Origin: Hydrogenophilales bacterium CG_4_10_14_3_um_filter_63_21
Lineage (GTDB): Bacteria > Pseudomonadota > Gammaproteobacteria > Burkholderiales > Thiobacillaceae
Length of the DNA: 48,379 nucleotides
Assembly: GCA_002784045.1 (NCBI GenBank)
Contig: PFJX01000013.1
Span: 1 to 48,379, forward strand
Direction of reading: 5' to 3'
This document shows, in pieces, positions 44,277-48,379 of the stretch. The translations under genes were made by a program, and so were the position numbers. The notes below the pieces were generated by a model. That model saw only the letters and a program-made list of their open reading frames with translations. It was not told the DNA's origin and did no database searches. Positions within the stretch are counted from its first letter, which is position 1; each line of letters starts with the position of its first letter.

Positions 44277-45686
44277 ATGAAACGCAGAACGCGTCCGTCC
44301 GCTCATCGTGGCCCCTTGCTCTGGCTGGGCCTGCTCTATCTGGCCTTCGTCATCTATGGCAGCCTGGTGCCGCTGGATTACCACGCGCTGCCTTGGGAGG
44401 TGGCGGTGGCGAAGTTCCGCGACATTCCCTTCCTCCAACTCGGCATCGGCTCGCGCGCCGACTGGGTGGCCAACCTGCTGTTGTTCATCCCGCTGGCGTT
44501 TCTCTGGACTGGCGTCCTGGCGCATGGGCGCCATGCCGCGGTGGCGACGCTGGCGACGGCTATTGTCCTGGCGGTGGCGGCGGCCTTGAGCCTGGGCATC
44601 GAATTCACCCAATTGTTCTTCCCGCAACGCACCGTGTCGCAAAACGACATCGCGGCGGAAGCCTTGGGCGCGATCCTCGGCGCCGCCTGCTGGTGGGGCT
44701 TCAGCGCCCGTCTGCTGGCCTGGTACGGGGGCTGGCATCGCGAACGCGAGCCGGCGGCCCTGGCGGAACGCGCGGCCTGGGCTTACTTCGTGGTCCTGGT
44801 CGGCTACAACGTGTTACCGCTGGACCTCACCCTCAGCGCGGTCGAGATTTATCACAAGTGGCATGAAGGCAAGGTCAACCTGATTCCCTTCGCCGGACTG
44901 CCGGCCGACTCCGCCCATGCCCTGTTCGAACTCGCCACCGACGCCCTGCTCTGGGCGCCCCTGGCCTGGCTCTGGCGCGCGCGGCCGGGGCGCGACAGCC
45001 TGAAAGCCTGGCGCATGGCCTTTCTGGCGGCGGCCAGCATCGAGTTCATGCAATTGTTCGTCTATTCGCGGGTGAGCGACGTCACCGACCTGTTCACCGG
45101 CGCGCTAGGCGCTGGGGTAGGCGCCTGGCTGGGCGGCCGCCAGTTCGGCGGCGCCCGCCGGGTCGATTCGGGCCACACGCCCGGCCGCGCCACGGCGGCC
45201 TGGATCCGCCTGCTGCTGGCCCTGTCCTGGCTACCCGTGCTTTTGCTGGTGTTCTGGTATCCGTTCGACTTCCACCCGGAAAGCGCCTTCGTGCGCGGCC
45301 GCATGGCCTTCCTCGATCGGGTGCCATTCCAGGTGTATTACTACGGCACGGAATTCCGCGCGGTCACCGAGGTGTTCCACAAGACCCTGTTCTTCGCTCC
45401 CCTCGGCGCCCTCCTGGCCTGGTGGGTGAGCGGCCTGTCCTGGCGCTGGCGCGGCTACGCGGCGACGGCCTCGCTGCTCGCCGTGGTCGCCGTCGCCCTC
45501 GGGATCGAGCTCGGGCAGGTCTTGTTGCCGGGCAAGTTTCCGGACACCACCGACTGGTTCCTGGAGAGCGTGGGGGGCTTGCTCGGCTATGCCCTCTTCC
45601 GGATGATGCGGGCACGTTTGGCGGCCACACCCCGTCGCCGGACAGAACCGGGATTCCATGACTCGGGGCGGGAGCGGAGCACATGA
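44277..45686 (+). CDS. membrane protein with three VanZ-like modules
   Basis: The gene encodes 469 residues from ATG 44277. Three similar modules can be seen. Module 1 is NLLLFIPLAFLWTGVL with IEFTQLFFPQRTVSQNDIAA. Module 2 is DALLWAPLAWLWRA with IEFMQLFVYSRVSDVTDLFT. Module 3 is KTLFFAPLGALLAWWV with IELGQVLLPGKFPDTTDWFL. Each has the hydrophobic helix pair and the E-x-x-Q-x-x...D pattern of VanZ-like proteins, which usually hold only one module. About ten membrane segments are predicted. VanZ-like proteins are frequent in exosortase loci, but their role is unclear. The stop overlaps the ligase ATG. Confidence 0.82.
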   Translation: MKRRTRPSAHRGPLLWLGLLYLAFVIYGSLVPLDYHALPWEVAVAKFRDIPFLQLGIGSRADWVANLLLFIPLAFLWTGVLAHGRHAAVATLATAIVLAVAAALSLGIEFTQLFFPQRTVSQNDIAAEALGAILGAACWWGFSARLLAWYGGWHREREPAALAERAAWAYFVVLVGYNVLPLDLTLSAVEIYHKWHEGKVNLIPFAGLPADSAHALFELATDALLWAPLAWLWRARPGRDSLKAWRMAFLAAASIEFMQLFVYSRVSDVTDLFTGALGAGVGAWLGGRQFGGARRVDSGHTPGRATAAWIRLLLALSWLPVLLLVFWYPFDFHPESAFVRGRMAFLDRVPFQVYYYGTEFRAVTEVFHKTLFFAPLGALLAWWVSGLSWRWRGYAATASLLAVVAVALGIELGQVLLPGKFPDTTDWFLESVGGLLGYALFRMMRARLAATPRRRTEPGFHDSGRERST

Positions 45687-46945
45687 GGGACATCGCCATT
45701 CTGTTCATCCTGCTGAGCCTGGCCTGGGCGGCCTGGCTGCGCCCGTGGCTAGGTGTGCTGGGATTGGCGGTGTTCGCCTACCTGAACCCCCAGGCTTACG
45801 GCGTCGGATTCATGCGCGGCTTTCCCGTGTACCAGACCCTGTTCGTCGTTGTCTGTCTCTCCCTGGGTTGGGAGGCTTATCGCCGCGGAACCTTGCCCAA
45901 GCTGCACTGGGACTGGCGCATCCCGGTCTTTCTGTTGTTATGGGCCTGCTTCCTCTTCACCACCTGGCAGTCCCAGTTTCCCTGGGCAGCCTGGATCAAA
46001 CTATCCGAGATCAGCAAGCTATTTCTGGCGCTGCTCCCCACCCTGCTGCTTATCGATACCCGGCGGAAGTTCTTCTTCCTCATCGCCACTATCGCCATTT
46101 CTTTCGGCCTGGTGACCCTGAAGGGGGGGTATTGGGCGGTGATGACCGGTTTCCAGGACCGGGTTTACGGCCCGCCCGGTAGCCATTTTGGCGGCAACAA
46201 TGAATTCGCGGTGGCGATGGCCATGAACATTCCCCTGCTGGTGCTCTGGCTGCGCGAGGCCGGGGGTCGGCGGTTACGCTGGACCCTCATGGCCATGGTG
46301 GGACTGAGCTACGCCGCCGTGCTGTCCTCATGGTCCCGTGGTGGCCTGATCACCCTGGCGGTGGCCACCGCCTTCCTGCTGTGGAGTGGCAAGCGCCGAC
46401 ACCTGATGCTGCCGCTCCTTCTGGCCGGCGGGGTACTCGCCATGACTGCTTTGCCGGAAAAGTGGTTCGAGCGCATGGGAACCATCACCACCTATGAACA
46501 GGATGCCTCCGCGACCAGCCGCCTCGATGCGTGGCGGGTAGGGCTGGCCTACGCACGGGCACACCCGTTCACCGGCGCCGGCTTCGACGGCTGGATCGCG
46601 GTCCAGCCGGATCCTGAACATCCGATGGCCTGGCACAGCAGCTATGTGCAAATCGTCACCGAGCATGGCTTGCTTGGCCTCACCCTGTGGAGCCTGCTGA
46701 TCTTTGGTTCCATGCTCGCCCTTACCCGTCTCGCCTGGCTGGCGGGGCGTGCCCGCGCGCCCCCCTGGGCGGGCGACTACGCCGCCATGCTGCGCGCCTC
46801 CCTGGCGGCTTATGCCGCCGGGGGGGTATTCCTGGGGCTGGCCTACTGGGATATCCCCTATCACCTGATAGCCCTGTCCGTACTGCTGGGGCATCTGGCA
46901 AGGAAGGAAGCAGGAATGTCGGCGCGGCAACCGGCCAGTCCCTGA
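45683..46945 (+). CDS. O-glycosylation ligase, exosortase A-associated type
   Basis: A 420-residue polytopic protein with about ten membrane segments. The N-terminal part (RDIAILFILLSLAWAAWLRP, later LAVFAYLNPQAYGVGFMRG) is typical of the exosortase-A-associated ligase family. The Wzy_C ligase region carries VYGPPGSHFGGNNEFAVAMA and the periplasmic loop LDAWRVGLAYARAHPFTGAG with HSSYVQIVTEHGLLGLTLW. It probably attaches lipid-linked glycan to secreted acceptors in the periplasm. ATGA overlap with the VanZ-like gene and the PEP-CTERM genes just downstream support an exosortase-linked pathway. The exosortase itself is not in the window. Confidence 0.85.
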   Translation: MRDIAILFILLSLAWAAWLRPWLGVLGLAVFAYLNPQAYGVGFMRGFPVYQTLFVVVCLSLGWEAYRRGTLPKLHWDWRIPVFLLLWACFLFTTWQSQFPWAAWIKLSEISKLFLALLPTLLLIDTRRKFFFLIATIAISFGLVTLKGGYWAVMTGFQDRVYGPPGSHFGGNNEFAVAMAMNIPLLVLWLREAGGRRLRWTLMAMVGLSYAAVLSSWSRGGLITLAVATAFLLWSGKRRHLMLPLLLAGGVLAMTALPEKWFERMGTITTYEQDASATSRLDAWRVGLAYARAHPFTGAGFDGWIAVQPDPEHPMAWHSSYVQIVTEHGLLGLTLWSLLIFGSMLALTRLAWLAGRARAPPWAGDYAAMLRASLAAYAAGGVFLGLAYWDIPYHLIALSVLLGHLARKEAGMSARQPASP

Positions 46946-47035
46946 CGGTTGCCCGTCTGTCGGATTCTTTTACAGGGCTGGCCGCTTTACCCTTCGAGCG
47001 ATTGCATGTAATTGATATTTAATGAAATAATTTGT

Positions 47036-47051
47036 TGGCCCGGTAATTGCT
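47036..47051 (+). promoter_or_regulatory. sigma-54 (RpoN) promoter for the PEP-CTERM genes
   Basis: TGGCCCG (47036-47042), four bases, TTGCT (47047-47051). This matches the -24/-12 consensus TGGCACG-N4-TTGC(A/T) with a single change, and the invariant GG and GC are correctly spaced. Transcription would start near 47062, about 56 bases before the PEP-CTERM ATG (with GGAG nearby). The rest of the 172-base gap is AT-rich and could hold activator sites. Confidence 0.72.
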
Positions 47052-47117
47052 TATGTTTGGTCATAGTGCAATATTGGCTTCCGGGCGCTGTCCAGCCCAG
47101 GAATTTAGGAGCAAGAA

Positions 47118-47879
47118 ATGATCAAACGTGTTTTCTCTACCGCCATCGTCTGCCTGACCGCAGCCGCCTGGCCGTGGACGCCCGCCATGGCCAGCAATGT
47201 CGAGCCTTACAGCATCGTGGTCAAAGACAGTGCAACCACGCCCACCCCCCTAGGGTCGGGAGGGCTGTCCTTCGATAACGCACAGGAAGTCGCCGGCCCG
47301 GATCAGGAAATTGCCCCCGAGGCCGCGCCTACACCCAGTATCACCATCCCTACGGCCACCTTCCTGCCACCGGCATTGCGGCCGTTCACTTTTGATACCG
47401 TGGACCCGGTCACCCCGCTCAAAGTCGTGGTGGTCACCAACACGCTATGCAAGCCCGGCAATCGCGGCGCAAATCCGTCCGTTATCGAAGGCCTGGAGCA
47501 GGGGCCTAACGTGGAGGGGCTGAAATACCGCCTCACCGGTACCAAGATGGTGGGAACAACCCCCATCACCCTGGCGCTGAATTTCAAGCTGGCTAAAACG
47601 GCGGGCGCCTGTCCCGATGGAAAAGTCACCTACAGCTTCACCCGAACCTACGATGTCGAGCGTTATTGGACGATTGCAGCCGCGTGCGCGCCCGCCGCGC
47701 CACCTTGCTGGAAGGTTATTTCTGGCGGCAACAAGTATCACATCTGGAACCCGAAATCGGCCTCCCCCATCCCCGAGCCGGGCAGCCTGGCCCTGCTGCT
47801 GGCTGGCGCCGCCGCCGCCGGGCTGGCACTGCGCGGCTGGCGCGGCAAACCTGTAGCCATCACCCCATCCCGGACATGA
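47118..47879 (+). CDS. PEP-CTERM sorting-signal protein
   Basis: The gene encodes 253 residues with a GGAG ribosome site. An N-terminal signal peptide (IKRVFSTAIVCLTAAAWPW to MAS) starts it, and the C-terminus is a classical PEP-CTERM tail: SPIPEPGSLALLLAGAAAAG, a hydrophobic helix, then basic residues RGWRGKP. Exosortase cleaves such signals after export. The middle has four Cys in pairs (LCKPGN, GACPDGK, CAPAAPPCWK), which may form disulfides, and no recognisable domain. It is the first gene of the sigma-54 unit and is followed 20 bases later by a second secreted gene. Function on the cell surface is unknown. Confidence 0.85.
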   Translation: MIKRVFSTAIVCLTAAAWPWTPAMASNVEPYSIVVKDSATTPTPLGSGGLSFDNAQEVAGPDQEIAPEAAPTPSITIPTATFLPPALRPFTFDTVDPVTPLKVVVVTNTLCKPGNRGANPSVIEGLEQGPNVEGLKYRLTGTKMVGTTPITLALNFKLAKTAGACPDGKVTYSFTRTYDVERYWTIAAACAPAAPPCWKVISGGNKYHIWNPKSASPIPEPGSLALLLAGAAAAGLALRGWRGKPVAITPSRT

Positions 47880-47899: not shown

Positions 47900-48379
47900 A
47901 TGCGACTCAAGCAATCCCTCACCCTTCTGGCGGCCATGCTGCCCTTGCTGGGCAGCGGCTTGGCCGGCGCCACCCCGATGGAAATCACTTCCTTCACCGA
48001 CGTGAAGAGTTGGGGTAGCAACAACGAGCTTATTGGCGGTACGGGTCCTGGCACCTACAACATCACGAAGACGTTCACCTCGGTGACGAGCGAGCCGGAT
48101 GGTTACACCCTCGAAACCATCGACTTCTCGGGCTCTGCCAGTGCCGTTACAACGTGGGGCACGGCTGGCGGCCAGCTTTTCGTAGAAATCCTGTACGGGG
48201 CTACTGGTCTGGGCAGCTTCCAGTTGGGCAGCGGTGATTACTTCCTCGGCAACAATGAACCGTTCACAGGGTCGTTGGATGTGGCTGACGCACTCGTCAC
48301 CGCGGGCGGAAGTCTCTCCTTCCGCTTCTATGAGTCCCTCAGTGATGTAGCTTTATTCGAAGGCGAGAGTTTTTCCGAG
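47900..48379 (+). CDS. secreted protein, 3' end cut by the window edge
   Basis: An open frame of 160 codons runs from ATG 47900 (GGAG upstream) to the window end. The N-terminus is a signal peptide (RLKQSLTLLAAMLPLLGSGL, then AGA). The mature part is rich in Gly, Ser, Thr and aromatic residues with beta-strand spacing (GPGTYNITKTFTSVTSE, LETIDFSGSASAVTTWG), like extracellular beta-sandwich proteins. The C-terminus is missing, so a PEP-CTERM tail is expected from the neighbour but not seen. It probably belongs to the same transcript as the PEP-CTERM gene before it. Confidence 0.75.
   Translation, partial: MRLKQSLTLLAAMLPLLGSGLAGATPMEITSFTDVKSWGSNNELIGGTGPGTYNITKTFTSVTSEPDGYTLETIDFSGSASAVTTWGTAGGQLFVEILYGATGLGSFQLGSGDYFLGNNEPFTGSLDVADALVTAGGSLSFRFYESLSDVALFEGESFSE

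Follow-up and report, generated by a model that had tools for sequence, protein, structure and literature searches.

A very probable PrsR-type sigma-54 promoter ahead of a PEP-CTERM gene in a Hydrogenophilales bacterium, and periodic box-to-promoter spacing among its relatives

The stretch of DNA analysed here (the window, 48,379 nt) is a complete contig (C60) of a 3.03-Mb genome assembled in 174 contigs. The locus considered comprises the following features.

45683-46945, + strand: O-antigen-ligase-like gene, exosortase A system-associated, the upstream neighbour (TIGR03097, PF04932)
46958-46974, + strand: PrsR box (motif 1 of Haft), TGTCGGATTCTTTTACA, 17 nt, sole match in the window
47005-47017, + strand: IHF-consensus-like site CATGTAATTGATA, agreeing with 8 of 9 fixed positions of YAANNNNYTGATW
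47036-47051, + strand: sigma-54 -24/-12 element TGGCCCGGTAATTGCT, a consensus match with GG-N10-GC spacing
47107-47111, + strand: ribosome-binding site AGGAG, read from the sequence
47118-47879, + strand: PEP-CTERM protein gene, 253 aa, with a signal-peptide-like N terminus and the tail IPEPGSLALLLAGAAAAGLALRGWR (PF07589)
47900-48379, + strand: second gene, probably PEP-CTERM, beginning 20 nt past the preceding stop and truncated by the contig end

The upstream neighbour matches the NCBIfam family TIGR03097 at 278.2 bits (cut-off 188.1) and also PF04932 (Wzy_C). The product of 47118-47879 carries the PEP-CTERM motif at its end (PF07589, 24.3 bits, cut-off 20.7) and gave no NCBIfam match at E 0.001. 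An orthologue of 77% identity is present in the relative G019, where the upstream region holds the same kind of box, with box, GG and GC kept, and where the orthologue is followed, 14 nt on, by a gene (L139:2224-2946) that matches PF07589 at 26.8 bits and whose start resembles the open reading frame at 47900. The order VanZ-like, ligase, PEP-CTERM, PEP-CTERM is common to the window and to G019, the VanZ-like and ligase genes of the latter being named by their likeness to those of the window. Because the second gene of G019 has a start like that of the frame at the contig end and closes with a PEP-CTERM motif, the promoter of the window probably drives an operon of two PEP-CTERM genes.

Sigma-54 promoters follow the consensus TGGCACG-N4-TTGCW. 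The element TGGCCCGGTAATTGCT agrees with it at 11 of the 12 fixed positions, has the correct GG-N10-GC spacing and ends 66 nt before the start codon of the PEP-CTERM gene; transcription is predicted to start near 47062. No other exact match to TGGCNCGNNNNTTGCW exists in the window, at least one such match is also found in 13 of 100 shuffles of the window, and when two mismatches are allowed the window holds 33 matches against 43.9 by chance, that is, fewer. The hexamers by themselves do not exceed chance and are weak evidence for a promoter, and scoring promoters from the window alone was dropped because the -24/-12 consensus lies within the chance level. The element is made secure by the upstream box TGTCGGATTCTTTTACA that accompanies it. 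Sigma-70 promoters were looked for near the PEP-CTERM gene and none was found. The preliminary description had placed a near-consensus -24/-12 element in an AT-rich gap before the PEP-CTERM gene, at 47036-47117: the element is confirmed by its agreement with the consensus and by the paired box, and the gap is relatively AT-rich (46.5% G+C in 46946-47117 against 59.3% window-wide), while the interval takes in the sigma-54 element but neither the activator box nor the IHF-like site.

The box is matched a single time in the window, and a box of this kind turns up in 1 of 100 shuffles. A spacer of 61 nt separates the end of the box from the sigma-54 element, and box and promoter at 50-75 nt form a single occurrence in the window and none in 100 shuffles; these chance figures are somewhat favourable, since the box pattern was built after inspection of the window and its relatives. 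An element of this type was described by Haft et al. in 2006: according to the accessible text of PMC1569441, a 17-nt motif with TTTACA at its 3' end is followed, about 63 nt on, by a sigma-54 motif. That element precedes 99 of 167 proteobacterial PEP-CTERM genes, has a phylogenetic profile matching that of PrsK, PrsR and PrsT, shows spacers of 32-92 nt (mean 62.8, SD 10.6) and lies 23-221 nt (mean 71) from the start codon (PMC1569441); its motif and mean spacer were defined independently of the window. As far as this description goes, the window shares motif 1 with its TTTACA end and motif 2 with its -24 (GG) and -12 (GC), both of its distances fall within the published ranges, and it likewise stands ahead of a PEP-CTERM gene in a genome that encodes PrsR and PrsK. 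The promoter of the window is an ordinary, expected instance of the PrsR regulon in print since 2006. For the pepA gene of Aquincola tertiaricarbonis RN12, RpoN1-dependent transcription, a start mapped by primer extension and -24/-12 motifs were reported in 2023 (PMC9850573, in excerpt). The pepA promoter and the one in the window share a PEP-CTERM gene, the -24/-12 motifs and a predicted upstream enhancer, but gene and organism differ, and RpoN dependence was tested there whereas the window is known from its sequence.

A terminator-like hairpin (46942-46963) follows the O-ligase gene, and its T-tract forms part of the PrsR box; the hairpin itself is not above chance. The proposal that the box also serves to terminate the upstream gene was dropped as not convincing, the stem counts being near those of shuffles: among 116 of 121 sites, the 5 that were off-centre in the clipped stretch being left out, stems of at least 5 were found at 22 sites against 16.3 in shuffles, and stems of at least 6 at 15 against 9.3.

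The regulators that such a promoter would need are encoded in the same genome. PrsR (TIGR02915, 731 bits, cut-off 502.6) and PrsK (TIGR02916, 793.6 bits, cut-off 300) lie side by side on contig C161, adjoining an XrtA-system glycosyltransferase gene (TIGR03013); RpoN is present in one copy (PF04552, 217.5 bits), and both subunits of IHF are encoded, alpha (TIGR00987, 149.2 bits, cut-off 120.25) and beta (TIGR00988, 140.1 bits, cut-off 119.95). Nine PEP-CTERM motif matches were found in the genome. A search for TTTACA with GG-N10-GC was uninformative (64 matches, the reversed pattern giving 88), and the longer TGTCG box was adopted in its place; the pair pattern with this box gave 10 rows, corresponding to 9 distinct boxes, against 2 for the reversed pattern. 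This is the genome-wide scan that had been proposed, for the same element before other PEP-CTERM genes. Of the boxes, two stand directly ahead of a PEP-CTERM gene (the window and C83:9806); that on C75 precedes a short open frame, with the PEP-CTERM motif in a later one, and two on C143 sit in a duplicated stretch just 3' of a PEP-CTERM gene, the second copy about 0.4 kb ahead of a WecA-like sugar-phosphate transferase gene (PF00953). The duplication (C143:7283-7653, L135) is a tandem one of about 199 bp and comprises the tail of the PEP-CTERM gene, the PrsR box and the sigma-54-like element. A further PEP-CTERM gene (C161:69543) has a box at 85 nt, and for three of the nine motif matches (C107, C87 and C161:1060) no such box was seen in the stretches examined.

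Other boxes lie at genes of a different kind. On C55 (23260-23342, L131) box and sigma-54-like element precede a histidine kinase gene with an HDOD domain, and this box may possibly represent a feedback or a side input to the regulon; the same arrangement recurs in relatives (L067, L075, L191, L223, L228 and L233), the HDOD and histidine kinase domains having been tested on the copy of this genome only. On C111 (1982-2064, L133) the box precedes the gene of a small protein whose start is twin-arginine-like. This protein matched nothing in Pfam or NCBIfam at E 0.001, and its relative at L120 had no match in NCBIfam. Members of this family, about 160-235 aa long and with starts such as RRRFTKGGLAAPVVLATLASKPVLG, have boxes at L118, L120, L128, L149, L156, L163, L173, L188, L194 and L243. 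The box at C83:11889 has a poor -24/-12 and precedes a gene of no assigned family, and that on C115 sits at the contig end. The link between glycan export and surface-protein production that had been put forward is borne out in part, by the position of prsK and prsR beside the XrtA glycosyltransferase gene and by the box ahead of the WecA-like gene, but the window, despite its glycan genes, holds no second exact match to the strict sigma-54 pattern.

Among 101 related genomes, the stricter pair pattern, with spacers of 40-70 nt, gave 151 sites (150 of them listed) against 5 for the reversed pattern. PrsR was above cut-off in 50 of these genomes. Element and PrsR occurred together in 43 genomes and were both absent from 45, the element alone being found in 6 (G020, G028, G029, G068, G087 and G094) and PrsR alone in 7 (G014, G017, G018, G043, G086, G097 and G099); the co-occurrence corresponds to a Fisher p of 1e-14 with kinship ignored, and p-values of this kind overstate the significance, sites within one genome or genus being related. 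Five of the seven genomes with PrsR alone (G014, G017, G043, G097 and G099) have sites at 71-101 nt. G020, of the same genus and 98% complete, carries four paired elements at 40-70 nt and no PrsR over the cut-off, which reflects either an assembly gap or a different activator. A strict PEP-CTERM open frame lies downstream of 47 of the 67 sites found in 19 other genomes of the genus; at three more (L070, L085 and L119) the PEP-CTERM tail has one changed residue, and several others run into contig ends. In a second set of 120 sites, made up of 105 with spacers of 71-101 nt and 15 listed sites of other genera at 40-70 nt, a strict PEP-CTERM frame follows 70. At L121, L130, L197, L209 and L255, PEP-CTERM frames of only 61-87 aa stand directly after PrsR-type promoters. 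The core of the preliminary description, a sigma-54 promoter under a PrsK/PrsR-type system before the PEP-CTERM gene, is well supported by the presence of PrsK, PrsR and RpoN in the genome and by the co-occurrence of element and PrsR.

The distance from the end of the box to the -24 element is distributed in five peaks, at about 52, 62-63, 73, 85 and 97 nt; the intervals between them are sparsely occupied. The pool comprised 150, 106 and 11 sites with spacers of 40-70, 71-101 and 9-39 nt, respectively, a few promoters with two boxes being counted at both distances (e.g. G049:C15); the matches at 9-39 nt (11 against 5 reversed) were taken as background. For the 256 sites at 40-101 nt the best period is 11.3 nt (R 0.70), a value equalled by none of 500 jittered sets. 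Computed by group for those sites of which the DNA was retrieved, the period is 11.33 nt within the genus (119 sites) and 11.27 nt in other genera (68 sites), with similar phases (6.02 and 6.27 nt, respectively). The p-values computed for these groups likewise overstate the significance, given the relatedness of the sites, but kinship by itself would hardly produce such agreement in period and phase between the genus and the other genera. The spacer of the window, 61 nt, lies toward the lower edge of the peak at 61-65 nt. Free DNA has a helical repeat of 10.5. For lac loops in vivo in E. coli, fitted helical repeats of 11.08-11.60 bp/turn have been given (PMC1762422, in excerpt), and the 11.3-nt period lies inside this range, not at the value of free DNA. 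The spacing period fits the in vivo helical repeat, and we take it as evidence that PrsR would have to sit on a fixed side of the helix with respect to the polymerase.

Between box and promoter lies a third element. The site CATGTAATTGATA ends 18 nt before the -24 element and differs at one position from YAANNNNYTGATW. The latter is the IHF consensus, quoted as WATCARXXXXTTR in the accessible part of PMC7962754, in reverse complement. In a first set of 68 spacers (the 67 genus sites and the window), 39 hold a match to YAANNNNYTGATW at 8-9 of 9 positions, against 4.7% in shuffles; 31 of these 39 end 17-19 nt before the -24 and 6 end at 9 nt, so that the position class of the site in the window is shared with relatives. 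The second set has such a match at 49 of 120 sites (shuffle mean 11.0, largest 19; reversed motif 7), mostly 18-20 nt (22 matches) or 28-31 nt (21 matches) before the -24. The 28-31-nt class was unforeseen and was recognised afterwards, in the second set only; the classes fixed beforehand (8-10 and 17-20 nt) are represented at 22 of the 120 sites (shuffle mean 0.98), in every case at 18-20 nt. Spacers near 62 and 73 nt mostly go with the 18-20 position and those near 85 and 97 nt mostly with 30-31; because its position class changes with spacer length in this way, the IHF-like element itself shifts by about one helical turn. IHF typically acts between enhancer and promoter at sigma-54 promoters (PMC7962754, in part), and the window has its IHF-like site at the corresponding place, although in such promoters the enhancer is usually 100-140 bp away and the box of the window, ending at 61 nt, is closer. 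IHF appears to be the likeliest reader of the middle element, since both subunits are encoded and the location is the typical one. The available text of PMC1569441 contains neither IHF nor the word 'phasing' and does not mention periodic spacing; moreover, in the literature searched, mostly outside subscription papers, no report or earlier description of periodic spacing or of IHF at PEP-CTERM promoters was found.

Box, promoter, coupling to PrsR, periodic spacing and the recurrence of the IHF-like site come from sequence comparison, and the region 46958-47051 is very probably an enhancer-dependent sigma-54 promoter of the PEP-CTERM/PrsR regulon, worked by phosphorylated PrsR, an IHF bend and RpoN. 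In this mechanism, for which we infer binding, phosphorylation, bending, start site and operon transcript, phosphorylated PrsR would bind the 17-nt box at 46958-46974 and IHF would bend the DNA at 47005-47017, the box thereby being turned to the side of the helix from which PrsR can reach the RpoN-polymerase at 47036-47051; this contact would open the polymerase there, and transcription would begin near 47062 and continue through the two PEP-CTERM genes. That the whole is a chance match, 47036-47051 being functionless and the gene transcribed from the upstream O-ligase operon, is hardly credible: the -24/-12 match does arise by itself in 13 of 100 shuffles, but never together with the box, and the arrangement is conserved at the G019 orthologue; the terminator-like hairpin after the O-ligase gene also speaks against read-through, though it is not above chance. 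It is improbable, if somewhat less so, that another enhancer-binding protein of the genome drives the element in place of PrsR. More than 12 long matches to the sigma-54 activator family profile lie below the PrsR cut-off and could supply candidates; the box, however, agrees with the PEP-CTERM box in print, which has an occurrence profile matching that of PrsR (PMC1569441, in excerpt), and the box pair tracks PrsR over the 101 genomes.

A promoter driven by PrsR in which the middle element is the site of some other regulator or an intrinsic bend, with no part for IHF, is a possibility to which we give a minority weight. The match is to a consensus only, the copy in the window has one mismatch, and 71 of the 120 sites of the second set lack the middle element at score 8. 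On the other hand, the recurring sequence (such as CAACCCATTGATT) fits the reverse-complemented IHF consensus and occupies the usual place of IHF between enhancer and promoter (both from the accessible part of PMC7962754), the two IHF genes are in the genome, and the middle element is unlike the TGTCG...TTTACA box.

Returning to the reading with PrsR, IHF and RpoN, it is likely that the PrsR regulon constitutes a natural helical-phasing experiment, with box, IHF site and promoter held on fixed faces in steps of about 11.3 nt (five, from 52 to 97 nt), and that it reaches beyond PEP-CTERM genes. If this is true, the spacing steps would report the intracellular helical repeat of DNA across an order of bacteria, and the regulon would take in a WecA-like glycan gene as well as genes for an HDOD-histidine kinase and for an exported protein of twin-arginine-like type. 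The main value of these data lies in the comparative picture over the relatives and not in the single promoter: whole-turn spacing and the IHF-like site would replace a loose description in two motifs by a promoter of three parts and strict geometry, which may provide a better rule for finding PrsR targets, those outside the PEP-CTERM genes included.
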